Assembly: GCA_029262355.1 (NCBI GenBank)
Contig: JAJCZO010000006.1
Coordinates: forward strand, 1 to 50,454
Direction: 5' to 3'
DNA length: 50,454 nt
From: Deltaproteobacteria bacterium
GTDB lineage: Bacteria > Desulfobacterota > Binatia > UBA12015
Part shown: piece by piece, positions 15,098 through 36,042 of the stretch
Numbering within the stretch: position 1 is the first letter of the stretch
How the letters are laid out: each line of letters begins with the position of its first letter
The notes under the pieces: model-generated
What the model saw: the letters and a program-made list of their open reading frames with translations, nothing else
Databases searched by the model: none
Told to the model about the DNA's origin: nothing
Made by a program: the position numbers and the translations under genes

Positions 15098-15274
15098 ATG
15101 AACAACCAATCCAACCTGACCGGAGTTCCCACGCCCCCCTCACCGGGCCGGGCGAGTTGCGACCTCCGACTGATGCAATCCACCCCCGTCGCCACCTGGG
15201 ACGGCTCATCCAACCACCGGTGCGTCCATCGACCCACCACCACTCGGATCCGAGGAAACGGAGAATCGAAATGA
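15098..15274 (+). CDS. 58-residue upstream ORF overlapping the Cys-rich gene start
   Basis: ATG 15098 is preceded by GGGAGGG with 3-nt spacing; TGA 15272-15274 overlaps the next ATG (ATGA). The peptide (MNNQSNLTGVPTPPSPGRAS...) has no recognisable motif and a composition rich in Pro, Thr and Arg. The good ribosome site and the ATGA overlap suggest a translated leader that couples to the downstream gene. Low sequence complexity leaves chance as the main alternative. Confidence 0.35.
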   Translation: MNNQSNLTGVPTPPSPGRASCDLRLMQSTPVATWDGSSNHRCVHRPTTTRIRGNGESK

Positions 15275-17967
15275 AGCTGTCCTACCCTGTCAAGAGGGCT
15301 TCCCTCTGCGGGCTCACCGTCGCTTTTGCGATGAGCCTTCTTGTCCCGGCGCAAGCCGACGCGGCGTGCCGTGAAATCGGCAAAATCTGCGGCGCCACCC
15401 GGTCTGAGAATACGAGCGGTGACGGAAACAATTTCAACCCATCGTGTGACGGAGACGGCAACTGCTCGAACGACGTCGAGTGGCGCTTCATCGCCCCCGT
15501 CACGGGTTCCTACACGTTCGATACGAGCAGCTCGAACTTCGACACGGTGCTGGCGCTTCATTCCGGTTCGTGTGGCGGCATCGGCGGCCAGTTCGCCTGC
15601 AACGATGACGGGGGCTCGGGCAACCGGTCCAGGATCGCCAACGTCTTCCTGACAGCCGGCCAGAGTGTCGTCGCCGTCGTCGACGGCTTCAGCAACGACA
15701 GCTTCTCGTGGTTCGGTTCGAGCTGCAGCGGCAGCGGCGGCAACGCGGTCCTGTCGATCACGGCACCCAACGGTTGCTTCGTCTGTGGCAACGGCGTCGT
15801 CGAGGCCCCAAACGAGCAGTGCGAGAGCGGCTCCTGCTGCCTGACGTCGACGTGCCAGTTCCGGCCTTCCTCCTTCGTCTGTCGTAGCGGCTCGGCGGAC
15901 GGCTTCTGCGATCCTTCGGAGACGTGCTCGGGTAGCAGCAACAGCTGCCCCGGAAACTTCGTCCGCAACGGCTCGACGGTCTGCCGCGCGGGCTCGGGCG
16001 ACTTCTGTGACCCGACCGAGACCTGCACCGGCACCGCCGGACAGAGCTGTCCGGGGAACTCGATCCAATCTGCCGGCACGGTCTGCCGCGCAGGCGGCGG
16101 CGACCCGAACGGCTCGGGCTTCACGTGTGACCCGAGCGAGACCTGCTCGGGAGTCACCGGACAGGCCTGCCCGGGAAACAGCTTCGCGACGGGAGGCACC
16201 GTCTGTAACGCAGGTTCGGGCGACAGCTGTGATCCGGCCGAAACCTGCCCCGGCGTGGCCGGCGGCGCGTGCCCGAGCGATTCTTTCGCCAATGGCGCGA
16301 CGGTTTGTCGCCCTGGCTCGGGCGATCCGAACGGCTCCGGCTTCACGTGTGATCCGACCGAAACCTGCCCCGGTGCCCCGGACGCAGCCTGCCCAGCCGA
16401 CGCCATCTCTAGCGCCGGAGCCGTGTGTAACGCGGGTGGCGGCGACCCGAACGGCTCGGGCTTCACATGCGACCCGAACGAGACCTGCTCGGGTATCGCC
16501 CAGGATCCGTGCCCCAGCGACTCGTTCTCGAGCCCCGGTACGGTCTGCAACGCGGGCACCGGCGACGTCTGCGATCCGACCGAAGTATGCTCGGGTGCCG
16601 CCGACACCTCGTGTCCGGCGGATAACGTCGCGCCAGTGAACACCGTCTGCCGCAACGGTTCGGGTACGCCGAACGGCGGCCTCGAGTGTGACCCGACCGA
16701 GCTCTGCTCGGGTACCCCCGACGTTGCCTGCCCGGCCGACGCAGTGCTGAACTCCGGCACGGTCTGCAACGCGGGTTCGGGCGATCCGAACGGTTCGGGC
16801 TTCACCTGTGACACCGACGAGGTGTGCTCCGGCAGCCTCCTCGATCCCTGCCCGACCGACGCCATTTCGCCGGCCGGCACCGTTTGTAACGTGGGTGACG
16901 GCGACCCGAACGGCTCGGGCTTCCTCTGTGATCCCGACGAGACCTGCTCCGGTGCGGCGGACGACCCCTGCGCCGCCGATTCGATCGAACCGGCTGGTAC
17001 CGTCTGCAACTCCGGCTCGGACGACCCGAACGGCTCGGGCTTCATCTGTGACCCTGAGGAAACCTGCAGCGGCGTAGCCGAAGATGGTTGCCCAGCGGAC
17101 ACGATCTCCCCCGTGGGCACGGTCTGCAACGCGGGCTCGGGCGATCCGACGTTCTCCGGCGTCATTTGTGATCCGGACGAGACGTGCTCCGGCGCGGCCG
17201 ACGATCCGTGTTCGAGCGACACGATCCTGCCGGCAGGCAGCCTGTGCCGCATTGGCCTCTCCGAATGTGACTCGAGTGAGTCCTGCAGCGGCGTTGCTGA
17301 CGACGCGTGTGCGCTCAACGGCGACTACCCGAATGGGACGTCCTGCTACACCGGCGGCGGCATCCCCGATCCGCACAACCCTCCGCCCGCGTCGGTTCCG
17401 CTGCCGTGTAACGACGGTGAGTGTGTCTGCCTCGGCGGCCGCTGTGTCGGCCCAGGCGCCAACATGCTCGTTCTCGACAAGGCCAAGATGAAGGTCTCCA
17501 AAGCCAGCAAGGATAGCGGCTTTGGCCGGGTCGAAGGTCTGATCACCGACGAAGAGACCGAGCCGACCGTGTTCGGCGGCGACTTCCGCCAGCAGCTCTT
17601 GGCGGGCAACGTCGAGATGTTCGTCAGCGACGCCGCTGGGTTCTCGACGACCTTCACCATCTCGGGCTGTATCGAGATTCCAACCGGCATCATCATCAAG
17701 TGCAAGGACGGCAACTTGAAGGCGACCTTCCGTCTGCAGAACGCCGGACCGGTGGTCTACGACATGAAGATCAACTTGAAGGGTTTGCCGCTGTCCGACA
17801 CCGGCACGGGCGCTCTCGTTCCCCCGGTAACCGCCGCCATCTTCCAGGGCTCGGACCCATTCTATCGGGTCGAGCGTGTGGGTGATCTCGGCGTGGTCGC
17901 CGGCGTCTGCAAGGTCAGCGGCTCGGGCAAGAGCATGCGGTGCAAAGAGCCCAAGGAGCTCAACTAG
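15271..17967 (+). CDS. Secreted protein with 13 disintegrin-like Cys repeats
   Basis: 898 residues. Start ATG 15271 (GAGGAAACGGAG upstream) opens a signal peptide (MKLSYPVKRASLCGLTVAFA..PAQADA). Residues 30-165 form a PPC-like beta-sandwich (GSYTFDTSSSNFDTVLALHS). Residues 170-200 carry CGNGVVEAPNEQCESGSCC. Residues 202-688 hold 13 tandem units of 31-40 residues with four Cys each (GTVCNAGSGD..CDPTETCSG..CPADA); this matches the Cys spacing of ADAM/snake disintegrin domains. Residues 730-898 form a beta domain ending CKVSGSGKSMRCKEP that is also found in the next gene. Located outside the cell or on its surface, heavily disulfide-bonded; adhesion is the natural guess but unproven. First of a co-directional block. 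Confidence 0.85.
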   Translation: MKLSYPVKRASLCGLTVAFAMSLLVPAQADAACREIGKICGATRSENTSGDGNNFNPSCDGDGNCSNDVEWRFIAPVTGSYTFDTSSSNFDTVLALHSGSCGGIGGQFACNDDGGSGNRSRIANVFLTAGQSVVAVVDGFSNDSFSWFGSSCSGSGGNAVLSITAPNGCFVCGNGVVEAPNEQCESGSCCLTSTCQFRPSSFVCRSGSADGFCDPSETCSGSSNSCPGNFVRNGSTVCRAGSGDFCDPTETCTGTAGQSCPGNSIQSAGTVCRAGGGDPNGSGFTCDPSETCSGVTGQACPGNSFATGGTVCNAGSGDSCDPAETCPGVAGGACPSDSFANGATVCRPGSGDPNGSGFTCDPTETCPGAPDAACPADAISSAGAVCNAGGGDPNGSGFTCDPNETCSGIAQDPCPSDSFSSPGTVCNAGTGDVCDPTEVCSGAADTSCPADNVAPVNTVCRNGSGTPNGGLECDPTELCSGTPDVACPADAVLNSGTVCNAGSGDPNGSGFTCDTDEVCSGSLLDPCPTDAISPAGTVCNVGDGDPNGSGFLCDPDETCSGAADDPCAADSIEPAGTVCNSGSDDPNGSGFICDPEETCSGVAEDGCPADTISPVGTVCNAGSGDPTFSGVICDPDETCSGAADDPCSSDTILPAGSLCRIGLSECDSSESCSGVADDACALNGDYPNGTSCYTGGGIPDPHNPPPASVPLPCNDGECVCLGGRCVGPGANMLVLDKAKMKVSKASKDSGFGRVEGLITDEETEPTVFGGDFRQQLLAGNVEMFVSDAAGFSTTFTISGCIEIPTGIIIKCKDGNLKATFRLQNAGPVVYDMKINLKGLPLSDTGTGALVPPVTAAIFQGSDPFYRVERVGDLGVVAGVCKVSGSGKSMRCKEPKELN
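15874..17335 (+). repeat. 13 tandem Cys-rich coding repeats
   Basis: Units of about 93-120 bp. The segment encoding DPNGSGFTCD is nearly identical at the nucleotide level in six or more units (GACCCGAACGGCTCGGGCTT), which points to recent unequal duplication or selection for the same codons. Units occur in a short form (GSGD.CDP) and a long form (GSGDPNGSGFTCDP), partly alternating. Confidence 0.9.
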
Positions 17968-18726: not shown

Positions 18727-21700
18727 ATGGCGAATGCGATGAAAGCCCTGACGACCCTGGCCCTTCTCCTGGGGATCAGCACTCCCGCCGCCGCGGTCTG
18801 GACGTTCACCGACGTCACGGCAACCGCACAGATCACCCACAGCCACGGCTACGCGGCCGGGCCCGCGGGCGACACCTACATTTTCTGTGGCGGAGTGGCC
18901 GCCGGAGACTATGACGACGACGGTTGGACGGACCTCTTCGTCGTTCGCGGCGACGGCGGTCCAAACCTACTGTACCGAAACAAGGGCGACGGCACGTTCG
19001 AAGATCTCGCAGCGACCGCGGAGGTCGACGACACGATGCTCGGCTGCGGCGCGACGTTCGCCGACTACGACGGAGACGGAGACCTCGATCTCCTCGTCAC
19101 CGGCTTCGACAACGAAGCCTCGAAGCTCTACAGCAACGACGGCGACGGCACGTTCACCGACACGAGCGCAGATCTACCGCTGACCAGGAAGAACAACGTC
19201 TCGTCTGCGTTCGCCGACTACGATCGCGATGGCGATCTCGATGTATTCGTCACGCACTGGACACTACCCAAGGTCACTCACCGCCCGGTCGATGAGCATC
19301 TCTGGCGCAACAACGGCAACGGGACGTTCAGCGACGTCGGCCTCGCATCGGGAATCACCGCTCACCAGAAAAACCACGACACCGACAAGACGTTCACACC
19401 GAACTTCATCGACATCGACAGCGACGGCTGGCTCGACATCGCGATCGCGTCAGACTTCGGAGACAGCCAGGTCTTTCTGAACGACGGCGACGGAACGTTC
19501 AGCAACGCAACCGACCCCGCGGTCATCACTGACCAAAACGGCATGGGCGCCACCGTGTGCGACTACGACTTCGACGGTGATCTCGATTGGTTCGTCACGA
19601 GCATCTACGATGTCCCGACCAATGCGACCGGCAACCGCATGTATCGCAATAAGGACGGTATTGGGAACGTGTTCGAGGACGCCACGACGGCGACCGGCAC
19701 TCGCGAGGGCTTCTGGGGCTGGGGCGCGAGCTGCCAGGACTTCGACAACGACGGCGACCAGGACATCTTCCACACCAACGGCTTCGACAACGCGCAGGCC
19801 ATGAACGATCCCGCTCGCCTGTTCGTTTCGAATGGCGCCGCGGTGTTCACGGAGGACAGCGCCGCGCGAAACCTCGACGACATCGGCCGAGGGCTCGCGG
19901 TCGTCTCTTTCGACTACGATCGAGATGGCGACCTCGACATCTTCGTGACGTACAACCAGGCAGCGCCAAAGCTGTTCCGCAACGATGGTCTCACCCAGAA
20001 CTACCTCACGGTAAAGCTCGACGGACTCGCACCGAACACCGAATCGATCGGTTCTCGGGTCATCGCTACGGTGAGCGGCACGAGCATGGTTCGCGAGCTT
20101 CGCGCGGGCAGCAACTATATCTCGCAAGATCCCGCCGAGGCGCACTTCGGCCTCGGGGGAGCCGCGACCGTCGACACGCTGGAGGTGCAGTGGTTCTCGG
20201 GTGGTTCGACGACGATGACGAACGTGCCCGCGAACCAGGTTCTCACGGTCGCCGAACCGACGAACACCTGCGGCGACGGCACCGTCGATGCCGGAGAGCA
20301 GTGCGACGAGGGGGCCGCGAACGGCGGCGTCTCTTGCTGTCAGGTGAACTGCAGACTTCGCCCGGGCGGGGCCACCTGCCGAGGGAACGCCGACGCGTGC
20401 GATGCCGCCGAGATCTGTGATGGCGTCTCGGCCGCGTGCCCAGCGGACGGATTCGAACCCGCCACCACCGAGTGCCGCCCGGCTGCAGATTCGTGCGACG
20501 TCGCGGAGTCCTGCACGGGCTCGGGCTCCGCGTGCCCGGCCGACTCGTTCGAGCCGGATACCGTCGAATGCCGCGCGTCCGCGGGCGTGTGCGACGACGC
20601 CGAAAGCTGCACCGGCCTGGGTGCCGCGTGCCCAAGCGATGCCAAGGGTACCGGGGAATGCCGCAGCGTCGCCGACCTCTGCGACGTCGCCGAGGTTTGT
20701 GACGGCGTAAACGACGGCTGCCCGACCGACGCGTTCCGTCCCGCAGATTCCGAGTGCCGCGCGCCAGCAGGTGCGTGCGACCTCCCCGAGGTCTGCGACG
20801 GACTCGGCGCCACGTGCCCCAGCGATGCCAAGAGCACCTCCGTCTGCCGGCCCGCCTCGGGGCTCTGCGACGTGCTCGAGGCGTGCGACGGAGTCAACGA
20901 CAGCTGCCCTGTCGACGGATTCATGGCTGGCGCAACGGTGTGTCGTGCGACGGCTGGGCTGTGTGACGTCGCGGAGATTTGCAGCGGGAGCTCAGCCACC
21001 TGCCCGGACGATGGATACATGCTGGGCGGCACGGAGTGCCGACCCGTCGACGCGATCTGCGACGTGGCGGAATCCTGCACTGGCACGGGCGCGACCTGCC
21101 CAACCAACATTTTCCAGCCAAGCGGGACCGAGTGCCGCGGCGCAGCAGACGTCTGCGACGTCGCCGAGACGTGCCCGGGCAACGCACCAAGCTGCCCTGT
21201 CGATGGCGTGGTCAATGCGGGGACGGAGTGCCGCGGCGTGGCGGGCGTCTGTGACACAGCCGAAGCCTGCGACGGCATCGCGACGGCCTGCCCGACCGAC
21301 GTCTTCGTGCCCGCCTCTACCGAGTGTCGCGCCTCAGCGGGCGAATGCGACATCGTCGAAAACTGCACGGGGAGCGGCGCGGCGTGCCCGAACGACACCA
21401 AGAGCACCGCCGAGTGTCGCGCCTCGGCCGGATTCTGCGACCCCTCCGAATCGTGTGACGGGCTCGGCGACACGTGCCCAGCCGACACGCTCGACAACCT
21501 CACCGAGTGCCGCGCCTCGGCGGGCGTCTGTGACCCGGCGGAGGCCTGCGACGGAATCGATCCCAATTGCCCAAGTGACCTGCTGGTGGCGTCGGGCACC
21601 GAATGCCGCACCTCGGCGAGCGCGTGCGATCTCCCCGAGGAATGCGATGGATTCGATCCGAGCTGCCCGGTGGACACGGGACTCCCAGATGGAGATGTCG

Positions 21701-22332
21701 ACGGAACCTGCGATGCGCTCGACGTCTGCCCCGAGGTCAGCGACCCGCCCCAGCTCGACGACGACTCCGACGGCATGGGGAACGCATGTGACCCGTGCAC
21801 GGCACTGCAGGCAACCACGACATCTAGCCCAAACCTGAAGCTCGCGGCCCTCACCCGCGGGTTCGGCAAGCAGAAGATGAAGCTCAAGGGCTTCGTGACC
21901 CTGCCACCGCCGGTCACGCCGGGTCTCGACCCGATCACTCACGGGGTCCGCTTCCTCATCGGCCGCGACGACGATCCCCGCAACCCCATCCTCGACGTGA
22001 CGATTCCAGGGGGCGCCTACAATCCGATCCTTCGAGAGGGCTGGATCGCGAGTGCCTCGGGTGTGACCTTCAAATTCAAGAGCAAGGCGGGCGTGGACGG
22101 GATCACGAAGATACTGCTCAAGACCAAGTCCGCAGAGACGGGGCTCGTGCAGTTTGTGGTCGTCGCCAAGAAGGCAGACTACAGCTTCCTCGAGAGCGAC
22201 CTGCCCCTTGCGATCACTCTGACGATCAACAACGTGGCGGGGCAATGCGTCGAGCATGCGTTCGAGCTGGCCCCCCATGTCGATCCCGCTTGCGAAGCCA
22301 AGTCCGGAGGGGACAAGATCCTCTGCAAGTAG
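18727..22332 (+). CDS. FG-GAP/ASPIC propeller fused to 14 disintegrin-like repeats
   Basis: 1201 residues, signal peptide MANAMKALTTLALLLGIS..AAA. Residues 30-425 hold FG-GAP/VCBS repeats with calcium loops (DYDDDGWTDLFV, DYDGDGDLDLLV, DYDRDGDLDVFV and others), an integrin-alpha-like beta-propeller. Residues 425-510 are an ASPIC/UnbV domain (GSRVIATVSG..RELRAGSNYISQDPAEAHFGLG), the CRTAC1 architecture. Residues 515-545 carry CGDGTVDAGEQCDEG..SCCQVNC, and 548-988 hold 14 Cys-rich units (TECRASAGVCDPAEACDGI..CPSD). A thrombospondin-3-like calcium motif (DDDSDGMGNACDPC) and a beta domain ending GGDKILCK follow. Exported, calcium- and disulfide-stabilised; probably surface adhesion or matrix. It is 21 nt from the next gene. 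Confidence 0.88.
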   Translation: MANAMKALTTLALLLGISTPAAAVWTFTDVTATAQITHSHGYAAGPAGDTYIFCGGVAAGDYDDDGWTDLFVVRGDGGPNLLYRNKGDGTFEDLAATAEVDDTMLGCGATFADYDGDGDLDLLVTGFDNEASKLYSNDGDGTFTDTSADLPLTRKNNVSSAFADYDRDGDLDVFVTHWTLPKVTHRPVDEHLWRNNGNGTFSDVGLASGITAHQKNHDTDKTFTPNFIDIDSDGWLDIAIASDFGDSQVFLNDGDGTFSNATDPAVITDQNGMGATVCDYDFDGDLDWFVTSIYDVPTNATGNRMYRNKDGIGNVFEDATTATGTREGFWGWGASCQDFDNDGDQDIFHTNGFDNAQAMNDPARLFVSNGAAVFTEDSAARNLDDIGRGLAVVSFDYDRDGDLDIFVTYNQAAPKLFRNDGLTQNYLTVKLDGLAPNTESIGSRVIATVSGTSMVRELRAGSNYISQDPAEAHFGLGGAATVDTLEVQWFSGGSTTMTNVPANQVLTVAEPTNTCGDGTVDAGEQCDEGAANGGVSCCQVNCRLRPGGATCRGNADACDAAEICDGVSAACPADGFEPATTECRPAADSCDVAESCTGSGSACPADSFEPDTVECRASAGVCDDAESCTGLGAACPSDAKGTGECRSVADLCDVAEVCDGVNDGCPTDAFRPADSECRAPAGACDLPEVCDGLGATCPSDAKSTSVCRPASGLCDVLEACDGVNDSCPVDGFMAGATVCRATAGLCDVAEICSGSSATCPDDGYMLGGTECRPVDAICDVAESCTGTGATCPTNIFQPSGTECRGAADVCDVAETCPGNAPSCPVDGVVNAGTECRGVAGVCDTAEACDGIATACPTDVFVPASTECRASAGECDIVENCTGSGAACPNDTKSTAECRASAGFCDPSESCDGLGDTCPADTLDNLTECRASAGVCDPAEACDGIDPNCPSDLLVASGTECRTSASACDLPEECDGFDPSCPVDTGLPDGDVDGTCDALDVCPEVSDPPQLDDDSDGMGNACDPCTALQATTTSSPNLKLAALTRGFGKQKMKLKGFVTLPPPVTPGLDPITHGVRFLIGRDDDPRNPILDVTIPGGAYNPILREGWIASASGVTFKFKSKAGVDGITKILLKTKSAETGLVQFVVVAKKADYSFLESDLPLAITLTINNVAGQCVEHAFELAPHVDPACEAKSGGDKILCK
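20368..21690 (+). repeat. 14 tandem Cys-rich coding repeats
   Basis: Units of 90-96 bp encoding xxECRxxAGxCDxxExCxGxxxxCPxD. The four Cys and the Asp/Glu positions are invariant. Compared with the repeats at 15874-17335, these lack the DPNGSGF insertion and are closer to the animal disintegrin consensus (CRxxxxxCDLPExCxG). Confidence 0.9.
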
Positions 22333-22353: not shown

Positions 22354-25300
22354 ATGCTCCTTTCCCGCTCCATACCGAGTCTGGCGGTCACACTCGCCAC
22401 GCTCCTCGCACTCGTGCTCTGCGCGCCCTCAGCCGCGCTCTCCGCCCCGAAAGGCGCTGGGGCGGACGATGAGGCTCCGCCTGCGGAAAGCCTCGACCCG
22501 GGCCAGACGTTGGATGCAGGATTCGCCTACCTGCGCGCCCGAGTCGATGGCGAGCCCGCGGCGCTGGGGTTTGCCTACATGCTGCACCGCCGGTTCGGAC
22601 TACTCGACTTTGGCGACTCGCCGGCTCTCTACGACGCCGTCTTGGCCGCAGAGCCGACCAAGGGGTCGGCTCCGAAGGGAGCCCTGCGGCTCTTTCGGCG
22701 CATGGTGGACGCCGACCAAAAGTTCGAAGAGTCCGACATCGCCGATCTGGGTACCCCCTGGGATCGCGTCACCGTGCGCGCGCTCTACTGCGACCAGGCG
22801 CCGCTCCCCGACGACTACGGGGCGACCCTCGCGGCGGAGGCGTCGCGCGGGGGCTACCATCTGACCCATGTGGGCATGGCGCTCACATGGCTCTCCGACA
22901 ACGAGTGCCCATGGCCGGTCGACGACGCAACCGTCCGGGAATGGATCGACGCGATGGCCCAGCTCGTGGCCGAGACGCCCACGGGCGACATCTCCTACGA
23001 AGCGGCCGGCGTCCTCAGCTACCTCGGCCACGACGACCGTATCCCGCGCGAGTTTTGGGACAGGGTCGTCGACGAGCAAAATGAGGACGGGGGCTGGCCC
23101 TTCGACGCGAAGCGCCCAGAGAGCCACTGGCACCCCACCCTGCTCGCGACGTGGGCATTGCTCGAGCACTTCGCAATCGTGAAACTCGACCGTACCGTGC
23201 CCCAAGCTGACGGACCGGAGCCGGCTCTCGCACCGCCGCCGGCGTCGGTACCCCAGGCCAACGAGACCGTGCCCTCCTCGTGGACCGAGATGATGGCGAG
23301 CGAGGAGCGTCTACTCGCCCTCACGCCCCACCTGGGACTTCTCGCGAGCGCGCTGCGCAACCTGGAGCTGCCCGGAGACCGTGCCCGACCCGTGTTCGAG
23401 CCCGCCGTCGCCGTCGTCGACGTGGAAGCGAAGACGAGCCCGACGCCGGTGCGGGCGGGGCTCTCGTCGAAGACGTCGGCCTTTGTCCCGGGCAAGCGCC
23501 AGACGCGAGACCGAGCCGAGCTCGCGCTTTGGAAGCCGCTATTGGATCAGGTCGCTTGGTTCGACCACGCCGCGTTCCATATGGTCCGGGGCGACTTCCT
23601 CCCGGGCGACGACGGCGCCTTCCAAGCCGAGGTATCGCTCGACGCGCGGGCGAAACTGCAGGACGGCACGACGGCGTGGGTGCGTGGCAAGTTGACGCTC
23701 GTCTGGGAGAGTTCCGACGAAGAAGAGTGGCGTATCGCCGGGTTTCGCACCGACGCGCTCGAGATCGAGGAGACGCCGCGGCCCTTCTTTCGAGAAGTGC
23801 TCTCCGACGCACTCCGCGACGACGACCTTTTGCGCGACGCGCGACACTCGGGCCATGACGAGGTGGTCCGCTCGTTCCTCGGTCAGGCCGATCGCAAGGG
23901 CCACGACTTCTTTCCGCCCGCCATGGACGAGCATCCTGGGCTCGCGATCGTAGATCTCGACCGCGACGGATTCGACGACATCTACGTCATGCCCCACTGG
24001 GGCCAGAACCAGATGTATCGCAATCGCGGCGACGGGAGCTTCGAGGAGATCGGAACCCAAGTCGGTCTCGACATCGCCGGGCACACCGCCGCCGCCGTCT
24101 TCGCCGATTTCGACAACGACGGCGACCTCGACGCAATGCTGGCCCGAACGCAGGAACCCAGCCTCTACCTGCGAAACGACGATGGGCGCTTCCACGACGC
24201 CGCCGTCGACATCGACGGCGGCCTACCGAAGCTCGCGTCGTCGGTCACCGCGGTAGACATGAACGGCGACGGCCTACTGGACGTCTACTTTGCGACCTAC
24301 GCAGTGCGGCGCCTGACGAGGGACTTCTTCTCGAAGAAGTCGACCAAAGACACTCCACTGCTCGACGGCTTCGTGACTCCGGCAGCATCCACGGAGCTTC
24401 GACGACGCCTCGAAGCCAGCGCGCAAGTCTACGACTTCCCAGGACCGCCGAACGTGGCCCTCCTCAACACGGGAAATGGGCACTTCGTGGTCGAGCCACG
24501 CTCGCCGCTCGGGGTCTTCGCCAACACCTACCAGGCCACCTGGGCGGACTACGACGCCGACGGCGATCCGGACGCCTATCTCGCAAACGACTTCGCGCCG
24601 AATCACCTTCTGCGAAACGACGGGAAAGGCCAATTCGCCGATGTGACGACGGCCAGCGGCACTTCCGACGTCGGGTTCGGGATGGGCGCCACCTGGGGAG
24701 ACATCGACGGCGACGCCCGAGAAGATCTCTACGTCTCGAACATGTTCAGCAAGGCCGGCCGTCGTATCACCGCTCGTTTTGGAGAAATCGACGACCGCGC
24801 GCCGAAGATGGCGCGCGGCAATACGCTCTTCCGCAACGAAGCGCCCCGGTTTCGGGATCTCTCCGAAGAGCCCGGCGACCAGCACGCACAAAAGGCCGGA
24901 TGGTCTTGGGGTGGACAGTTCGCCGACGTCGACAACGACGCATCGCTCGATCTCTACGTTCTGTCCGGCTACTACACGGCGCCACGGGAGTTCGAACTCC
25001 CCATCGACACTTGAAGTCAGTACTGGCGCACGGTCGTGCGCAAGGATCCCGCCATGCAGCTCGCCTCGACCACCCAGAGAGCTCCGATCGCGGGCGAAAA
25101 CCCCGAACTGATCGATGGCGCATCGCTCAGCGGTCACGAGCGCAATCATCTCTTCTTGAACCAGGGTGACGGCCGGATGCGTGACGTCTCAGGGCTATCC
25201 GGACTCGACGCTCCCGCCGACGGCCGCGCCGTTGGGTGGCTCGACTTCGATCACGATGGCTGGCTCGATTTCGCGGTCGTGAACGCAAACGCGCCTACTC

Positions 25301-26139
25301 TCCAGCTCTTCCGCAACGACATCGGTGACCTTCCCAGCGCGGCGAACCGGGGAGCGATCGGCTTTCGGCTCGTCGGAGGCAACCGGTCCGCGGCGGCCGA
25401 CTCAGCCTGGAGCAACCGCGACGGTGTCGGGGCTCGCCTCGAGATCGAGGTCGGTGATCGCACTCTGGTGCGAGAGCTTCGCGCCGGAGAAGGGTTCGCC
25501 TCGCAGAACAGCGCGACTCTCTACGCAGGACTCGGCGACGCTACCGCCGCGGATCGCGTGACGGTTCGCTGGCCGAGTGGTCGCACGCAGTCAGCCGACC
25601 GCATCGGCGCCGGCAGCCTGGTCACGTTCTACGAGAACCCGGACCACGCACCCAACGACAGCGGGACCGTCACCCAGACCCTGTCGCCCACCCCATCGGT
25701 GAACATGCCTCCACACCGACCTGCGCGCGAGTCGCTCGTGTTCTCCGAGATCGTCGGAGCCTCGACCGCGCCCCTGCGCGTGCTCACGACGACGGCCACC
25801 TGGTGTGAGTCGTGCCGAAGCGAACTGCCTGACGTCGCGAGACTTCGCGACCAGTTCTCCCCCACGGAACTCGATCTGGTTGCCCTACCGGTCGACGATA
25901 CCGACACTCCGGAGATGCTCCTCGCGTACACGCGCCAGTACGAACCTCGATACCGCATGCTCTACGATCGGTCCGAGGCCGACGTGAAGGCCGTGCAAGA
26001 GCTGATCGAAAAGAGGCTACGGACCGACGTGTTGCCAGCCTCGATCGTCATGAACGCCAACAACCAGGTGCTCGACGTGTTCTGGGGCTTGCCCACCGTC
26101 TCGGATCTCCGCGCCCTGCAGGAGAATCGATACCGATGA
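22354..26139 (+). CDS. Predicted selenoprotein: FG-GAP/ASPIC propeller with thioredoxin domain
   Basis: 1261 residues if TGA 25012-25014 is read as Sec887 (context FELPIDT-U-SQYWRTVV). Open frame continues in phase on both sides. Signal peptide 1-30; an alpha-helical region (40-270) with a terpene-cyclase-like DEQNEDGGWPF; a small alpha/beta domain (390-480); FG-GAP repeats from 528 (DLDRDGFDDIYV, DFDNDGDLDAML, DYDADGDPDAYL); Sec887; one more FG-GAP blade (DFDHDGWLDFAV); ASPIC/UnbV (about 980-1090, GVGARLEIEVG..RELRAGEGFASQNS); and a C-terminal TlpA-like thioredoxin domain with CESC at 1151-1154. The propeller and ASPIC parts lie on opposite sides of the TGA, so either half alone is incomplete. 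No ribosome site exists for a restart. Alternatives: nonsense mutation or sequencing error. Periplasmic or surface redox protein. Confidence 0.72.
25012..25041 (+). promoter_or_regulatory. Candidate bacterial SECIS element with in-frame TGA
   Basis: TGA 25012-25014, an 11-nt spacer (25015-25025), then GCGCAC (25026-25031), loop GGTC (25032-25035) and GTGCGC (25036-25041). The 11-nt spacing and GGUC loop match the SelB-binding hairpin of E. coli fdhF. Unlike fdhF, the stem has no bulged U. Confidence 0.68.
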
Positions 26140-27014
26140 TGTCGCACCTCGGCCGCGCCGCGTGGCTCGTCTGTCTCTCGTTTCTCGCGGCCTGCGAGAG
26201 TCCCCCTCCGCCTCAGACGACCTCCAAGATCCCGTTCCCACCCCAGACATGTGAGGTCGACCGGCGTGCGTCGGAAGGTCAGGATCCGCCCGCCCGCTTC
26301 GACTTCACCCTCGCAACGGGCTCACAGGACACCCTGGCCGAGCAGTACGAACGGCCGCGCTACACGAATTTCTTTCCACCCCGAACATTCGCTCAGATGT
26401 CCGAGCTGCGTGAAGAACATTGGGAACCCGAGGGAAGCGAGGCACCTACTGCCCGCGGCACCTACGAAGTCTCGGTGTTCCCTTGCCAAGACGGGTGGAC
26501 GACCGAGCAACAACGCCAAGCAAGCACGCTCATCGAAGCGACGCGCGCCGCCGCCGAGCGCCATGGCTGGACCGATTACGATCGCGCGGTCGAGGACGGG
26601 TTCTACCCGATGATGGGCCTCTCGGATCACTACGTGAACGACGAGTTCGCCAACGACGGGCGTATCCTGGATCCGGACCGACCGGAGTTCCTGATGTACT
26701 ACGACACCGCCGACGGGAAGGTGCTGTCGGGGATCATGTACGTCATGCCAGGGATCGGGCTCCGTGGCCCCCAACTCGGCGGGCCACAGACGATCTGGCA
26801 CTACCACGTCATGCCGGCGGCCTGCTACGTGAACGGGATCGCCGTCGAGCGGCCCGGAACCGACGGCTCCTGCTCCCGCGGCGTCCGGTCCGAAGTCTCA
26901 CCCGAAATGGTCCACGTGTGGTTCATCGACCGCAAGAATGGGCCATTCTCGTCAGCCATGATCCCTCCGGCCGGCACCGGCTCGGACACCGCGCCACGGC
27001 ACACGAAACCCTAG
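26136..27014 (+). CDS. Lipoprotein with WHYH motif, coupled to the selenoprotein
   Basis: 292 residues. ATG 26136 overlaps the selenoprotein stop (ATGA); a second ATG follows at once at 26139. Lipobox SFLAAC (Cys about 20). The conserved-looking core is GFYPMMGLSDHYVNDEF near 165, LDPDRPEFLMYYD, GPQTIWHYHVMPAACYVNG near 225 and PEMVHVWFIDRKNGPFSS near 260. The His-rich WHYH plus HVW pattern could bind a metal. From memory, related exported proteins with DPxRPExLxY...LHVW exist in Acidobacteria and other phyla without known function. Overlapping translation with the thioredoxin-bearing selenoprotein suggests a joint role. Confidence 0.8.
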   Translation: MMSHLGRAAWLVCLSFLAACESPPPPQTTSKIPFPPQTCEVDRRASEGQDPPARFDFTLATGSQDTLAEQYERPRYTNFFPPRTFAQMSELREEHWEPEGSEAPTARGTYEVSVFPCQDGWTTEQQRQASTLIEATRAAAERHGWTDYDRAVEDGFYPMMGLSDHYVNDEFANDGRILDPDRPEFLMYYDTADGKVLSGIMYVMPGIGLRGPQLGGPQTIWHYHVMPAACYVNGIAVERPGTDGSCSRGVRSEVSPEMVHVWFIDRKNGPFSSAMIPPAGTGSDTAPRHTKP

Positions 27015-27121
27015 ACGGGCTGGTCGAGAATCGGGGCCCCGCGGGGCCAGAAAGGCGTCGTTCTGGCGGGAAAGTTCGTGGCCTGGCGCTCCGCGCGCGT
27101 GGTAGCCTCCGAGGCTTGCAC

Positions 27122-30100
27122 ATGTCCCGCATCCTCTCCCAAAGCCTCTTGCCCCGCCTTCTTCCGATCCTCGTGACGGTGCTCGTCACGAGCGCGACGA
27201 GCCTCGCCGGTGAGGGCCCCTTTGCCACATTCGAGTCGCCGCCCGTGCGACCGGCGGCGCTCTCCCCGGCCGGCGATCGCTTGTTCGTGGTGAACACACC
27301 CGGCTCTCACCTCGAGATCTTCGCCGTCGACGGGTCCGGCCTCACCTACGAGTCCTCCGTCGCCGTTGGCCTCGAACCCGTCTCGGTCGCCGTACGGAAT
27401 GCGAACGAAGTCTGGGTCGTGAACCACGTGTCCGACAGTGTGAGCATCGTAGACGTGTCGACGTCTCCCGCTCGTGTGGTGCGTACCCTGCTCGTCGGCG
27501 ACGAGCCCAGCGACATCGTATTCGCCGGACCGTCCGATGGGCGAGCGTTCATCACGACGGCCCACCGCGGTCAAAACCATCCGCTCGACCCGGAGCCCTT
27601 CACCCAAGAGGTCGGGCGGGCCGACGTCTGGATCTTCGACGCGACCAACCTCGGCGCCGGTCTCGGCGGCATTCCCGAAGCGATCCTCTCGATGTTCGGC
27701 GACACGCCCCGCGCGCTCGCGCGCTCCGCAGACGGAAGCACCGTATACGCCAGCGTGTTCCGGTCGGGCAGCCGAACGACCACCGTGCCCGCCTATGCCG
27801 TGTGCGATGGAGGTCAGGGCGCCGCCCCCTGCGCGGCCGGCCCGCTCACGATTCCGGGAGGAGTCCCCGCCCCGAATCAGAACCTCGATGGCGTACCCGG
27901 TCCTGAAACCGGCTTGATCGTGAAGTTCGATCCACTCAGCGGGATCTGGCTGGACGAGCTGAGCCGCGACTGGAGCGGAGCCGTCCCATACTCGTTGCCT
28001 GACGAAGACGTGTTCGTCATCGACGCCGACGCCGCCGTTCCCATCGAAACGGCGAGCGTCACCGACGTCGGAACGGTGCTCTACGCCATGGCCGTGAACC
28101 CGGCCAGCGGAGTCCTCTACGTCGCCAACACCGAGGCGATCAATCACGTACGCCTGGAGGCAAGCGTCCAGGCGCACCAGCACGAAACACGAATCTCGGT
28201 CGTTCCAGCCGGAGGGGGTGCCGCCGTGGCGAGACACCTCAACAAGCACATCAATTACGCCACCGTCCCGAGCCCAGCGGGGGTCGCGGACGCCAGTCTG
28301 GCCACCCCGACCGCGATCGCCGTTGATGCCACCGGAACGACGCTCTTCGTCGCCGCCTTCGGATCGAGCAAGATCGGCGTGTTCTCGACTTCGGAGATCG
28401 AAGCCGACACGTTCACCCCCGCCGCAGCCGATCACGTCGAGCTCTCGGGTGGTGGCCCGAGCGGCATCGTGATCGACGAAGCCCGCGGCCGGCTCTACGT
28501 ACCAACCCGATTCGACAACGGCGTGAGCATCGTCGACATCGGTACGAAGAGTGAGATCGGCCACCTCACGCTCCACAACCCAGAGCCCCAGCACGTCGTC
28601 GCGGGGCGACCGTTCCTTTACGATGCCCGCCGCACATCGAGCAATGGTGAGGCGAGCTGCGCGAGCTGTCACGTGTTCGGCGATCTCGATGGGCTCGCGT
28701 GGGACCTGGGAAGCGAAGTAGGACCGGTCGTAGCGAACCCTCTACCTCGCGTTACCCCGAACCCGGTTCCCCCCGGACTCGATGCCGACTTCCATCCGCT
28801 CAAGGGACCGATGCGCACCCAAACTCTGCGCGGGATGGCGACGCACGGGGCGATGCACTGGCGTGGCGACCGCACCGGCGGACTCGACATCGGCGGGCAA
28901 TACGACGACGAGCGGGCCGCGTTCGATCAGTTCAACCCGGCGTTCGTGGGGCTCATGGGGCGGGCGACCGAACTCGAGCAAGCCGACATGGACGCGTTCA
29001 CCGACTTCATCCTCGAGGTGGTCCTGGCGCCCAACCCGTATCGCAACCTCGACGACTCCCTCACCGCGGCTCAACAGGTCTCACTCGATTTCTTCACGCA
29101 ACCAGGCGCGTGCAGTACGTGCCATGTCCTGAACCCGGGAAGTGGCTTCTTCGGGACCGATTCGAGGTCCTCGGTCATGGCCGAGTTCGTGCAGTTCATG
29201 AAGGTCCCGCAACTGCGCACGATGTACCAGCAGATCGGGCGGTACAAAGGCGTGCTCTCCTCGACGATCAGCGGCATTCCGACCTCGGGAGACGAGATCC
29301 GAGGCTTCGGGTTCAACCACGACGGCAGTACCGAGATGGTGACCGAGGGCGGGCTGGAGTTCCTGGTCGTCTTCGACAGCCACTTCGCGCCGATCGTAGG
29401 TCAGCAGGTGACCTACAACGCGGCAACGGCGGTCGTCGCGGGCCCTCGGGCCGACCTTCTCCTCGCACGAGGCGCGGCCGGCGAGTGCGACGTGATCGTC
29501 AAGGGTGTCGTCGGCGGCGAGGCGCGGGGCTACTACCGCACCGCGACCGGCGACTTCCAAAGCGATCGGGCCAGCGAGCCGGCCCTCGCGGAAGCAACGC
29601 TGCGCGGTTTCGGCCTCCTCGCGGGCCAGGAGATCACGTACACCTGCACTCCGCCATCCAGCGGCGTGCAGATGGGCGTCGACAGGGACTTCGATGGAGT
29701 GTTCGACCGCGACGAGCTCGACGCCGGCACGGACCCCACTGATGAAACGAGCCGGCCGTATTACGACACCTTCGTTCTCCGGAAAGCGAAGCCAACCAGC
29801 GGCTCCGAAAAATTTCAGACGATCGGCCCGGTCAACCTCGCCGACACCCTTGGATCGAGCAACTACATCGTACGAAAGCTCCAGATGTTGGGCGCGCCGG
29901 CCGACGTGGGGAACGGGATCGCGTACCCCACCCACCTCACCGAGTATCGACTCCTAGCCGCGCCAGGCACGCCGCACTTCAGCGGGCTGGAGGACGTCGT
30001 CACGAAGACGAGCTGCTCCGACCTCACGGTACAGCTGAAGAAGGCCTCCGCGCTTCTGGTGCCGACCAACACCGACGAGAGCGCACCCACGACGGCGCCG

Positions 30101-30589
30101 CTCGAGCTCGAGCACAACCTCGACCACTTCCTTTGCTACGACGCCAAAGTTCAAAAGAAGGCCGGCGACGGCTCTCCGTTGCCGAAGTTTCAGAAGGGAG
30201 CTCAGGTCGACGTAGACGACGGCAGCACCACGCGCACCTACGAGCTGACGAAGATCCGGAGGCTCTGCGTGCCCACGGCCAAATCGGGGACGCCGGTCTT
30301 TCTCTCGGGGCCGGACGCCGGGCTGCCGGCGCCCATCACTCCGGCCACGATCCGCAACCCCGACCGCTACCTCGTGTGCTACATCGCCAAACTCGCGAAG
30401 AAGGACATCGCGCAGCAGGGCTGCGGCCCGCTGATCCCTGGAGACAAGGGCACGACATTCTCCCCCAAGCAGGTCGCCGCGCCCCGCGCCTCCGGACTCC
30501 ATGTGGCCGATCAGCTCGGCCAAAGGCAGCTCGACACCCCCAAGCTCCGCGAGATCTGCATGAACGCCGAGGTCACTTTCGGCCCGTAG
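27122..30589 (+). CDS. Secreted beta-propeller / di-heme cytochrome c protein
   Basis: 1155 residues. The true start is ATG 27122, which opens a signal peptide (MSRILSQSLLPRLLPILVTVLV..SLAG); the frame is open far upstream by chance. Residues 30-490 form a YVTN/YncE-type propeller (DRLFVVNTPGSHLEIFAVDG, GVLYVANTEA). Two c-type heme sites are CASCH (513-517) and CSTCH (664-668), in a MauG/cytochrome-peroxidase-like arrangement. A calcium-loop motif (DRDFDGVFDRDELDAGTDP) comes near 860. The tail contains two Cys-rich beta units (LDHFLCYDAKV..RRLCVPT and RYLVCYIAKL..REICM). Periplasmic or surface electron transfer or oxidation; substrate unknown. Last gene of the exported-protein block, converging on the sulfatase. 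Confidence 0.87.
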   Translation: MSRILSQSLLPRLLPILVTVLVTSATSLAGEGPFATFESPPVRPAALSPAGDRLFVVNTPGSHLEIFAVDGSGLTYESSVAVGLEPVSVAVRNANEVWVVNHVSDSVSIVDVSTSPARVVRTLLVGDEPSDIVFAGPSDGRAFITTAHRGQNHPLDPEPFTQEVGRADVWIFDATNLGAGLGGIPEAILSMFGDTPRALARSADGSTVYASVFRSGSRTTTVPAYAVCDGGQGAAPCAAGPLTIPGGVPAPNQNLDGVPGPETGLIVKFDPLSGIWLDELSRDWSGAVPYSLPDEDVFVIDADAAVPIETASVTDVGTVLYAMAVNPASGVLYVANTEAINHVRLEASVQAHQHETRISVVPAGGGAAVARHLNKHINYATVPSPAGVADASLATPTAIAVDATGTTLFVAAFGSSKIGVFSTSEIEADTFTPAAADHVELSGGGPSGIVIDEARGRLYVPTRFDNGVSIVDIGTKSEIGHLTLHNPEPQHVVAGRPFLYDARRTSSNGEASCASCHVFGDLDGLAWDLGSEVGPVVANPLPRVTPNPVPPGLDADFHPLKGPMRTQTLRGMATHGAMHWRGDRTGGLDIGGQYDDERAAFDQFNPAFVGLMGRATELEQADMDAFTDFILEVVLAPNPYRNLDDSLTAAQQVSLDFFTQPGACSTCHVLNPGSGFFGTDSRSSVMAEFVQFMKVPQLRTMYQQIGRYKGVLSSTISGIPTSGDEIRGFGFNHDGSTEMVTEGGLEFLVVFDSHFAPIVGQQVTYNAATAVVAGPRADLLLARGAAGECDVIVKGVVGGEARGYYRTATGDFQSDRASEPALAEATLRGFGLLAGQEITYTCTPPSSGVQMGVDRDFDGVFDRDELDAGTDPTDETSRPYYDTFVLRKAKPTSGSEKFQTIGPVNLADTLGSSNYIVRKLQMLGAPADVGNGIAYPTHLTEYRLLAAPGTPHFSGLEDVVTKTSCSDLTVQLKKASALLVPTNTDESAPTTAPLELEHNLDHFLCYDAKVQKKAGDGSPLPKFQKGAQVDVDDGSTTRTYELTKIRRLCVPTAKSGTPVFLSGPDAGLPAPITPATIRNPDRYLVCYIAKLAKKDIAQQGCGPLIPGDKGTTFSPKQVAAPRASGLHVADQLGQRQLDTPKLREICMNAEVTFGP

Positions 30590-33330: not shown

Positions 33331-33912
33331 TCAGATCTTCTGGCGAAGCGACGGCAGCATCTCTCCTTCAGCCACGAAATGCAGTGCGATTCCGTTGTTG
33401 CAGTAGCGCAGCCCGGTGGGCTTCGGGCCGTCGTCGAACACGTGGCCCTGGTGCCCGTCGCACCGCGCACAATGATACTCCGTGCGCGGGAGCACGAGCT
33501 TGAAGTCCCGGCTGGTCCCCAGACGCCCCTCGATGGGCTCGTAGAAACTCGGCCAGCCGGTCCCACTGTCGAACTTGGCGTTCGAGCTGAAGAGCGGCAA
33601 GTTGCAGGCGGCACACACGTACGTGCCGGCTTTCTTCTCGTCGTTCAGCGGACTCGAATACGCCCGCTCGGTGCCCTCCTCGAACAAGACGTTGTACGCC
33701 TTGGGCGACATGAGCTTTGCCCAGTCTTGCTTCGAAAGAGTCAGCGGCCGCCAGTCGAGCGGATGGGCCGGCGCCGAACCTGCCGGTGCCTCCGCGATCG
33801 CTGGGGAGACCCAGCTACCGAGCCGCCAAGCTACGCCACCCGCAAGAAGGCCTCCGACCGCCCAAAGGACGCTGCGGCGCGATTGTCCTGTCCTCGTGTC
33901 TTGATCCTTCAT
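33331..33912 (-). CDS. msrB: Peptide methionine (R)-S-oxide reductase, exported
   Basis: 193 residues. The N-terminus carries a twin-arginine-like signal (GQSRRSVLWAVGGLLAGG). The MsrB domain (50-193) has both zinc CxxC pairs (CAAC near 97, CARC near 145), the SGTGWPSFYEP loop, HVFDDGPKPTGLRYC and the catalytic Cys in RYCNNGIALHF; the usual RYCINS/RYCVNS is here RYCNNG. It repairs oxidised methionine in periplasmic proteins. Divergent from the nitronate-monooxygenase-like gene with a 98-bp shared upstream region. The 263 bp between it and the TPR gene hold no visible gene. Confidence 0.93.
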   Translation of the reverse strand: MKDQDTRTGQSRRSVLWAVGGLLAGGVAWRLGSWVSPAIAEAPAGSAPAHPLDWRPLTLSKQDWAKLMSPKAYNVLFEEGTERAYSSPLNDEKKAGTYVCAACNLPLFSSNAKFDSGTGWPSFYEPIEGRLGTSRDFKLVLPRTEYHCARCDGHQGHVFDDGPKPTGLRYCNNGIALHFVAEGEMLPSLRQKI

Positions 33913-35130: not shown

Positions 35131-36042
35131 ATGTCTCAACCCCGATTCGGCTACGGCATTCAGATCGCATGTGCGGCCATGCATTGGCCCGAGTGTCTCG
35201 ACATCGCCCGCGCCGGTGACGAGCTCGGCTACCGCTTCGTTGGCGTTCCCGATCACTACGTCGCAACGCCTGACGGAGCCGACCCGAACCCGCAACTGCC
35301 GTTGCTCGACGGGTGGACCGCACTCGGCGCGATGGCGCAGGCAACATCCCGAATTCGCATCGGGCCCCTCGTCGCGAGCAACACCTTCCGCCATCCGGCG
35401 ATCCTCGCCAAGATGGGCGCGAGCCTCGACCACATCAGCCAGGGCCGCCTGGACCTCGGGATCGGAATCGGGTGGTTCGACTTCGAACACGCGAGCTTCG
35501 GCATCCCGTTCGAACCGACACCGGCTCGGCTCCGCGCGATGGAAGAAGCGATCCGCATCCTGCGCGCGCTCTGGACCGATCCCGAAGTCTCGTTCCATGG
35601 GGAGTTCTATCGCCTCGAGAAGGCCATCGCCGAGCCAAAGCCCGTCCAGAAACCTCTCCCCCTGATCATCGCATCGAGCGGCCCAAAGGTCGGTCTACGA
35701 ATTACCGCGCAGTACGCCGACCATTGGAACACGTACCGCACTGCGGCCGACTGGGCCCAATTGAATCGGCAGCTCGACGAGCACTGCGAACGGCAGAACC
35801 GCGACCCGGCCGAGATCACCCGGTCCGTCATGATCCCGCTCTACCTCGAAGAGACGGAGGCCGTAGGCAGGAAGGTCGCCATGTTCGGTGACCGCGAGTG
35901 GTTCCTCGTCGGAAGCGATGAGGAGATCCGCGACCGAATCGGTCGATTCGTCGATGCCGGGGCCGAGCAGGTCATCATCCAGGTCGACGAATCGGCTGGA
36001 AACGCCGACTCGCTCGCCGCCTTCGCCGAGCGCTTCTTCTAA
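35131..36042 (+). CDS. LLM-class (F420- or FMN-dependent) oxidoreductase
   Basis: 303 residues from ATG 35131, with GAGGAGGAACG as ribosome site. Luciferase-like TIM barrel: YRFVGVPDHYVATPDG near 40, TSRIRIGPLVASNTFRHPAILAKMGASLDHISQGRLDLGIGIGWFDFEH (65-115) and PLPLIIASSGPKVGLRITAQYADHWNTY near 180. The IGIGWFDFEH loop and the overall length fit the F420-dependent subfamilies, so F420 is more likely than FMN, but this is not decisive. Probable operon with the nitronate-monooxygenase-like gene. Confidence 0.9.
   Translation: MSQPRFGYGIQIACAAMHWPECLDIARAGDELGYRFVGVPDHYVATPDGADPNPQLPLLDGWTALGAMAQATSRIRIGPLVASNTFRHPAILAKMGASLDHISQGRLDLGIGIGWFDFEHASFGIPFEPTPARLRAMEEAIRILRALWTDPEVSFHGEFYRLEKAIAEPKPVQKPLPLIIASSGPKVGLRITAQYADHWNTYRTAADWAQLNRQLDEHCERQNRDPAEITRSVMIPLYLEETEAVGRKVAMFGDREWFLVGSDEEIRDRIGRFVDAGAEQVIIQVDESAGNADSLAAFAERFF

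Follow-up and report, generated by a model that had tools for sequence, protein, structure and literature searches.

Organization of the locus

The window analyzed here is the whole stretch of 50,454 nucleotides of contig JAJCZO010000006.1 from a Deltaproteobacteria bacterium, and it forms part of a draft assembly of 453 contigs. It contains a long gene whose frame opens with ATG at 22354, meets a TGA at 25012-25014 (codon 887) and continues in the same phase to a TGA at 26137-26139, comprising 1261 codons in all. The gene and its associated features are as follows.

22354..26139, + strand: very likely selenoprotein gene, 1261 residues with Sec887; the start codon is that of the preliminary description and is putative
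22354..22446, + strand: probable export signal, residues 1-31, a hydrophobic N-terminus inferred from the translation alone
22447..23900, + strand: N-terminal region without a Pfam family, QNEDGGW at residue 242
23953..25011, + strand: FG-GAP propeller blades preceding the Sec codon, from residue 534 (Pfam PF13517)
25012..25014, + strand: TGA taken as selenocysteine, codon 887; the TGA column is shared by 128 distinct sites and Sec genes are in the genome
25026..25041, + strand: SECIS-like bacterial hairpin, 6-bp stem and GGTC loop, 11 nt past the TGA, assessed by covariation and a synonymous-codon null
25042..25056, + strand: AAGGA, then 7 nt to an in-frame ATG (codon 901), a possible internal start whose Met is not conserved
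25423..25620, + strand: UnbV_ASPIC domain, residues 1024-1089 (Pfam PF07593, 60.9 bits, cut-off 23.4)
25780..26091, + strand: thioredoxin-like (ResA-like) domain with CESC, residues 1143-1246; near-cut-off Pfam matches, Foldseek matches to ResA
26136..27014, + strand: lipoprotein-like gene overlapping the 3' end of the selenoprotein gene; no Pfam family, contains WHYH
27011..30589, + strand: protein with two CxxCH haem-type motifs (CASCH, CSTCH), start putative

The FG-GAP repeats (PF13517, 143.2 bits over the whole protein in five stretches) flank codon 887 on either side, and the ASPIC and thioredoxin-like domains lie only after it, as the preliminary description had stated. FG-GAP repeats followed by a UnbV_ASPIC domain above the Pfam cut-off define the CRTAC1 / ASPIC-UnbV family, to which the protein conforms. 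The thioredoxin motif reads W1150-C-E-S-C1154, and the matches to Redoxin (25.3 bits, cut-off 26.6) and AhpC-TSA (24.6, cut-off 26) both fall slightly below threshold. In two relatives (L029 and L030) a region resembling the N-terminal part without a Pfam family sits C-terminal to the ASPIC domain.

The hairpin downstream of the TGA codon

A bacterial selenoprotein is expected to show an in-frame TGA inside one conserved protein, a SECIS hairpin with an apical-loop G shortly past the TGA, and selenocysteine genes in the same genome. The second of these is met by GCGCAC-GGTC-GTGCGC at 25026-25041, a perfect stem starting exactly 11 nt past the TGA; the earlier claim of an in-frame TGA followed at this distance by a perfect 6-bp GGTC hairpin therefore held. 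The combination of a TGA and such a hairpin 8-20 nt on occurs twice in the window, whereas 100 first-order Markov sequences average 0.06 occurrences each and 6 of them contain any. The second occurrence, at 35919, is preceded by a frame of only 9 codons and was rejected as chance. A search with Rfam returned nothing over the gathering threshold in the window and nothing relevant around the element at a relaxed threshold. Folding of the 39-nt hairpin region by itself shows no excess stability over shuffled versions (z -0.94), and the strength of the case is therefore comparative.

Across the family, a stem of at least 6 bp follows 112 of the 128 TGAs, against a mean of 38.2 and a maximum of 55 in 1000 synonymous-codon redraws. 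These stem-loops comprise 66 distinct forms with main TGA-to-stem gaps of 9-11 and 14-16 nt, and the first two loop positions are G in 124/128 sites. Among 79 relatives of motif type S3, 27 two-sided changes were counted, a number reached by none of 500 shuffles (5.8 +/- 1.9), and 93.2% of the hairpin cells are paired. The alignment used (A3, from which L028 was left out) is defined by motif through its W and R/Q codons, which affects the outer pairs and not the three covarying inner pairs.

The folding energy of the 48 nt downstream of the TGA, relative to synonymous-codon redraws, did not separate TGA members from non-TGA members, a failure that may reflect the many competing structures of GC-rich DNA. 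A stem-specific score performed better, with a combined p of 4e-7 over 29 TGA sites, with 7/29 below 0.05 singly, but these sites are related and not independent; L005, which is the same site as L025, was dropped before both tests. Stems of at least 6 bp were also present at 11/25 non-TGA sites, above the null mean of 5.0 and equal to its maximum of 11, and three Asn-bearing forms retain a stem of 7-9 bp.

Translation across the TGA codon

Protein homology spans the TGA at 43-69% identity in five relatives (L026-L030). Two of them, from the same genus (L026, 69%; L027, 55%), are full-length with a single TGA that is read through, and the requirement for an in-frame TGA inside one conserved protein is thus met. 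When the 128 sites are compared in pairs, synonymous changes make up 68.6% of the single-base differences at codons +1 to +3 (14.4% expected) and 65.5% at the three codons 5' of the TGA (19.0% expected); codons +2 and +3 alone give 52.8% against 13.5%. An earlier version of this test (77.1% synonymous against 12.2%, with Trp at codon +4 in 97/97) was partly circular because the sequence classes used, S1 and S3, were themselves defined by a motif requiring Ser/Thr at +1 together with Trp at +4; the values above come from all 128 sites. Trp occupies codon +4 in 85/94 Planctomycetota sites that were never picked by motif. The comparison shows that translation runs through the TGA at 25012-25014.

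Selenocysteine machinery

The genome itself encodes selA, selB, selD and a tRNA-Sec with anticodon tca, which answers the check for this machinery proposed in the preliminary description and meets the third expectation. Among 26 genomes with TGA-bearing members, selA was above cut-off in 22, and the remaining 4 carry a tRNA-Sec match of at least 60.9 bits; six of the 22 (G032, G066, G150, G154, G156 and G157) lack a tRNA-Sec match above 50 bits. The tRNA-Sec model also scored above cut-off in 5/14 control genomes. In Planctomycetota, selA is present in 38/40 TGA-bearing genomes, the exceptions being G314 and G378, where it was not found, compared with 10/20 family-free genomes (p 1.1e-4); the genomes compared were not drawn at random.

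Distribution and diversity of the family

A TGA stands at the Sec column in 128 distinct sites, all found by profile without a motif filter, in records of Planctomycetota, Verrucomicrobiota, Acidobacteriota and Myxococcales. TGA members occur in at least 75/392 sampled Planctomycetota genomes, some with several genes; this lower bound was compiled by hand, and the TGA position was checked only in the regions fetched. Of 80 Planctomycetota regions fetched, 65 carry TGA, in each case (65/65) at the site itself, and the other 15 have neither TAA nor TAG, codons that are likewise missing from the column wherever its codons were tallied. The family motif around the codon is D-x-U-S-x-x-W-R. One locus with two TGAs (G068:C12) was considered as a double selenoprotein and rejected, since its relatives align over one TGA and the second is the end of the gene.

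The preliminary description had asked which residue homologues carry at position 887, and held that it would be refuted if close homologues all carried unrelated residues. The nearest homologues carry TGA, so this outcome did not arise. Relatives without TGA carry mostly Glu, Asn, Ser, Ala, Asp or Arg, and Cys in only 3/25, unlike typical selenoproteins; Cys lies at the column in L036, L038 and L039 have a similar motif with Cys (DYCTRFW), and the other 22/25 have other residues. The choice of these 25 sites was not random: a Ser/Asn motif supplied 7, the 3 Cys forms were spotted by eye, and 15 were stop-free rows.

In an AlphaFold model (pLDDT 94), Sec887 is predicted to lie where a helix begins, in a loop that joins two blades of a CRTAC1-like propeller. 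D885 and E929 are present in 105/105 rows, and the propeller lacks a conserved partner Cys, the best column having Cys in 42/105 rows. Thioredoxin-like domains above cut-off are fused in L060, L160, L165 and L075, and no thioredoxin match was found in L029, L062 (S1), L033 (S2), L079 or L087; the thioredoxin fusion is one architecture within the family. The alignment A5 omitted L002 and L143 (short) and L205 (which also has a TAG); 20 near-copies, chosen by hand, were then taken out of the 124 sequences that were left. The tree was built with FastTree only and excluded loci fetched twice and matches with fewer than 330 filled columns.

Interpretation and proposed mechanism

Taken together, the conserved TGA, the covarying hairpin, a protein sequence conserved across the TGA and the genome's own Sec genes make it very likely that selenocysteine is inserted at codon 887. 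This inference is by comparison, without data on incorporation in vivo; the earlier proposal of Sec887 in an exported propeller protein is supported in the same sense, without experiment. It is likewise very likely that the exported protein is a member of a large family of selenoproteins, as yet undescribed, that combines a CRTAC1-type FG-GAP propeller with an ASPIC domain. In the proposed mechanism, SelB with Sec-tRNA would recognize the GGTC hairpin just 3' of UGA-887 and insert selenocysteine, yielding a single long exported protein. The selenol may then serve as the active group in a redox reaction of reductase or peroxidase type outside the cytoplasm, and would be returned to its reduced state by the fused thioredoxin-like CESC domain or, where the domain is absent, by a separate thiol protein. 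We lean toward this redox role, which is inferred, but leave it open because the propeller has no conserved Cys partner and several members lack a thioredoxin match.

Alternative explanations

The alternative that survives best, and remains possible, accepts the selenoprotein but regards Sec as a metal ligand or binding residue and not as a thiol-type redox catalyst. The replacement of Sec by Glu, Asp, Asn or Ser, the invariance of D885 and E929 and the lack of a conserved partner Cys favor it, whereas the fusion of several members to thioredoxin-like domains, and the Ala and Arg replacements, which are ill-suited to a retained ligand, speak against it.

A second alternative, all but excluded, is that translation truly ends at the TGA and that a second gene begins at ATG 25054 or at the GTG within the hairpin, giving a two-chain propeller. 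The preliminary description had found no ribosome site for such a gene, which is not exact: AAGGA (25042-25046) precedes an in-frame ATG (25054-25056) about 40 nt past the TGA, and the hairpin's in-frame GTG opens a mechanical ORF at 25036-26139. However, this reading leaves codons +1 to +3 untranslated, yet their differences are as synonymous as those before the TGA; Trp at +4 prevails in the Planctomycetota sites not picked by motif, L027-L030 have Leu or Ile and not Met at codon 901, and the codons tallied for the column include no TAA or TAG.

Decoding of UGA as some other residue in the absence of Sec machinery, by near-cognate read-through or a changed code, can be set aside almost entirely; the varied residues of non-TGA relatives and the rarity of Cys would suit it, but the hairpin covaries with a loop that is often GGTC, the genome has a tRNA-Sec with anticodon tca, selA is enriched among TGA-bearing genomes, and TGA also terminates the same gene. 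A sequencing error or decaying pseudogene, conceivable in a draft assembly of so many contigs, is ruled out for practical purposes: two further assemblies of the genus, at 69% and 55% identity, have a TGA at this position, as do 128 sites in all, and the frame 3' of it is open and conserved.

Relationship to known systems

The FG-GAP/ASPIC/UnbV/CRTAC1 family is absent from the 119 selenoprotein families inventoried in 2026 (PMC13188914, Table 1), no NCBIfam model scored above cut-off for the family members searched, and no described CRTAC1/ASPIC-UnbV member with Sec was found in the literature searched. Within that literature the earlier claim of an undescribed architecture held, and it extends to a whole family and not one odd protein. 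The propeller and ASPIC architecture is shared with CRTAC1 / ASPIC-UnbV proteins (PF07593 with FG-GAP repeats; PDB 9etn): CRTAC1 gives a profile match with E 2e-42, and 9etn is the best structural match of the predicted model (Foldseek E 2.2e-27, TM 0.70 by target length). None of the four profile-aligned stretches of murine CRTAC1 covers positions 252-411, the place of the Sec loop.

The SECIS hairpin of E. coli fdhF starts 11 nt past the Sec codon and has a GGTC loop. The hairpin at 25026-25041 has the same distance and loop, but the fdhF protein is unrelated, and distance and stem vary in the present family. Thioredoxin-like and TlpA/ResA-type selenoproteins (PMC13188914) resemble the ResA-like domain fused here; their listed Sec motifs are UxxC or UGC, whereas the present protein has CESC as its thioredoxin motif and carries Sec in the propeller. 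Use of Sec in Planctomycetota has already been reported for Planctomycetes P1 and P2 (PMC4807772), in whose main text ASPIC, FG-GAP, VCBS and integrin do not appear (candidate table S9 was not covered).

Cys homologues are reported for almost every selenoprotein, and SECIS-independent searches rely on such pairs (PMC13188914); the rarity of Cys forms may explain why this family was missed. A bolder reading, which we consider likely, is that of a widespread unlisted family, commonest in Planctomycetota, in which Sec is seldom swapped for Cys. With similar confidence we suggest that Sec, when lost, becomes Glu, Asn, Ser, Ala or Asp, pointing to a job that sulfur does not do. If true, prokaryotic selenoproteomes are undercounted, above all in Planctomycetota, and ASPIC/CRTAC1 proteins in these groups are perhaps often annotated as truncated at the Sec codon. 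The family would offer a testable case where sulfur may not replace selenium, in a fold shared with mammalian CRTAC1.

Neighboring genes

The ASPIC protein encoded at 18727-22332 (L003) was considered as a Sec paralogue and rejected, as it has a gap at the aligned Sec place. Matches of the 27011..30589 protein to Lactonase and CCP_MauG are weak and below cut-off. ORFs resembling the lipoprotein-like gene at 26136..27014 lie near the gene in two genomes of the same genus (L147, 38%; L148, 71%), and L148 also has an ORF resembling 27011..30589 at 80% identity.

Gene structure and reading frame

The reading frame that begins at 22354 contains an in-frame TGA at 25012-25014 and stays open until the TGA at 26137-26139, with the hairpin GCGCAC-GGTC-GTGCGC at 25026-25041, 11 nt 3' of the internal TGA. 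The encoded features are as follows.

22354-26139, + strand: window selenoprotein, 1261 residues, presumed Sec887, with FG-GAP repeats (Pfam)
Residues 1024-1089: UnbV_ASPIC (Pfam)
Residues 1143-1246: thioredoxin-like matches, slightly below cut-offs (Pfam)

The preliminary description, made from sequence alone, had reported this frame and hairpin spacing, which held when the sequence was re-read, and three domain types, of which FG-GAP and UnbV_ASPIC were upheld and thioredoxin gave matches slightly under the cut-offs. Its claim that no ribosome site exists for a second gene is inexact, as AAGGA lies 7 nt ahead of the in-frame ATG at 25054.

The window holds two perfect 6-bp GGTC hairpins placed 8-20 nt after a TGA, where Markov sequences average 0.06; the second was rejected as a chance occurrence, having merely a 9-codon frame ahead of its TGA. 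Folded by itself, the window element showed nothing unusual (z -0.94), and the case therefore rests on comparison among relatives.

Distribution of the family

Relatives with one TGA came to light in a protein search covering the window's own genome and related ones, 145 in total. Alignment of homologues, a check proposed in the preliminary description, placed the TGA at a common column in relatives L026-L030 (43-69% identity), and a second motif type, DV-U-LDMFDGVGRR, has another stem with the same loop (GGCGTC-GGTC-GACGCC). Scanning of named genomes added records from Acidobacteriota, Myxococcales, Akkermansiaceae, other Verrucomicrobiales, Mariniblastus and Planctomycetaceae. In the phylum of the Planctomycetaceae record (G152), 134 of 392 genomes matched a profile search (E 1e-60) and most listed matches carry one TGA; genomes with one TGA number at least 75 of the 392, by hand count. 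The window's own phylum gave matches in 5 of 395 sampled genomes at 1e-70, with TGA in 5/6 rows. For the phylum of the Akkermansiaceae record (G154) the figures were 15 of 387 genomes and 6/39 rows, these six being the top-scoring rows and confined to 2 genomes. The 128 distinct TGA sites comprise 17 of the window's motif type (S1), 12 S2, 80 S3, 7 S4 and 12 other, and a profile without motif filter recovers all 128. Three records hold tandem pairs of TGA-containing family genes (L063, 5152-7815 and 8116-10725; L079, 5239-7671 and 7686-10322; L087, 2775-5309 and 5314-7752).

Translation across the TGA

A TGA acting as a stop would leave the codons just 3' of it untranslated. Among pairwise single-base differences across all 128 sites, the synonymous share is 68.6% for codons +1 to +3 (14.4% expected from random changes) and 52.8% for codons +2 and +3 alone (13.5% expected); for the three codons 5' of the TGA it is 65.5% (19.0% expected). 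Pairwise counts are not independent; the excess is nonetheless large and alike on both sides. Codon +4 is Trp in 85 of 94 Planctomycetota sites, which were never motif-selected. A rival explanation, an internal start downstream of the TGA, is favored by the AAGGA before ATG 25054, but this Met is replaced by Leu or Ile in L027-L030, and the synonymous excess and conserved Trp answer it.

Conservation of the hairpin

Stems of at least 6 bp follow the TGA at 112 of 128 sites; when codons were redrawn 1000 times with the protein fixed, the count averaged 38.2 and never exceeded 55. The first two loop positions are G in 124/128, and GGTC occurs 12-32 nt 3' of the TGA in 91/128. Among S3 hairpins (79 sequences, 69 distinct), standard pairs fill 93.2% of cells, compared with 18-69% in slid registers; two-sided changes number 27 (5.8 +/- 1.9 in shuffles) and covariation is 0.293 versus 0.137, with none of 500 shuffles reaching these values. 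Two-sided change affected 3 pairs in this set, a count reached by 53/500 shuffles. The innermost pair is A-U (44 distinct) or G-C (16), and its switch accompanies a two-residue change, Q..V to R..A or T.

Relatives with a sense codon at the Sec column have such stems in 11 of 25 cases (mean 5.0, maximum 11 in redraws). Three of these, the Asn forms L066, L067 and L071, keep a stem of 7-9 bp and might retain a SECIS remnant after Sec loss.

Residues replacing selenocysteine

The preliminary description asked whether homologues carry Cys or Sec at position 887. The column is TGA in the 128 sites, and the 25 non-TGA sites, a non-random sample, encode Glu (6), Asn (5), Ser (4), Ala (4), Cys (3), Asp (1), Arg (1) and Leu (1; row L204, perhaps misaligned). 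The Cys forms L038 and L039 retain the motif as D-Y-C-T-R-F-W. On a FastTree tree of 169 rows, residue state at this column requires 10 changes; Ser/Asn forms (Acidobacteria records) and Glu/Ala/Asp forms are nested among Sec forms, and no Cys form falls within the large Sec clades. We read this tree as repeated loss of Sec without replacement by Cys.

Selenocysteine machinery

The components whose presence in the same genome had been proposed as a check were all found: selB (338 bits) adjoins selA (541.5 bits) on one contig, and the genome also encodes selD (286 bits) and a tRNA-Sec whose anticodon is tca. selA exceeded its cut-off in 22 of 26 TGA-bearing genomes, and in the other four (G002, G045, G153, G158) tRNA-Sec scored between 60.9 and 81.4 bits. 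No tRNA-Sec match exceeded 50 bits in six of the 22 (G032, G066, G150, G154, G156, G157). Within Planctomycetota, selA was over cut-off in 38/40 TGA-bearing versus 10/20 family-free genomes (Fisher p 1.1e-4). All 5 genomes chosen for a listed member without TGA keep selA, so Sec loss in a member needs no loss of machinery.

Relation to described selenoproteins

A 2026 inventory (PMC13188914, Table 1) lists 119 selenoprotein families, none with FG-GAP/ASPIC/CRTAC1-type domains, and cites Deng et al. 2026 for unvalidated candidates. Planctomycete selenoproteins have been reported (PMC4807772); those domain words are absent from its main text, supplementary table S9 being outside the comparison. 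Propeller, VCBS and CRTAC are absent from the examined passages of PMC12013277 and PMC9312934, and literature searches returned no entry for a paper on a selenoprotein with FG-GAP, ASPIC, UnbV, VCBS, CRTAC1 or beta-propeller. As literature coverage is incomplete, the family is likely, rather than certainly, new.

Predicted structure and function

A structure model from 32 rows represented the Sec loop poorly; one from 105 rows reached pLDDT 94.0 and pTM 0.94. The latter places Sec887 (model residue 363) at the start of helix 363-372, within the predicted loop between strands 342-347 and 408-412. The best structural match is murine CRTAC1 (9etn), whose stretches aligned to the profile omit positions 252-411. 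D885, E929 and G872 are present in 105/105 rows; these rows were selected for TGA, so Sec conservation there is no test.

The fused thioredoxin-like domain resembles ResA. It exceeds Pfam cut-offs in L060 (S1) and in the S3 members L160, L165 and L075, and was not detected by Pfam in L029 and L062 (both S1), L033 (S2), L079 or L087; L160 and L165 additionally carry TPR repeats. In L029 and L030, a counterpart of the window protein's N-terminal region sits after the ASPIC domain, in place of a thioredoxin domain.

The main functional rival is that Sec serves as a metal ligand. Our inference is a selenol enzyme, which would be secreted or periplasmic and may be re-reduced via the thioredoxin domain where fused.

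Neighboring genes

15157-17967, + strand: ORF, single Disintegrin-like match at 38.8 bits; 82% identity to an upstream ORF in L148, a locus in a same-genus genome
18727-22332, + strand: FG-GAP/ASPIC protein, then many Cys-rich repeats (Pfam Disintegrin, 215 bits, 7 stretches)
27011-30589, + strand: protein with two CxxCH motifs, 3' of the selenoprotein gene; weak propeller and MauG-type matches
33334-33912, - strand: MsrB, SelR domain (150.9 bits); export-like N-terminal stretch, no in-frame TGA

Downstream of the selenoprotein gene is a lipoprotein-like gene; similar ORFs to this and to the CxxCH protein occur in the same-genus genome. A homologue of the 18727-22332 protein also lies immediately 5' of the selenoprotein gene in L148.
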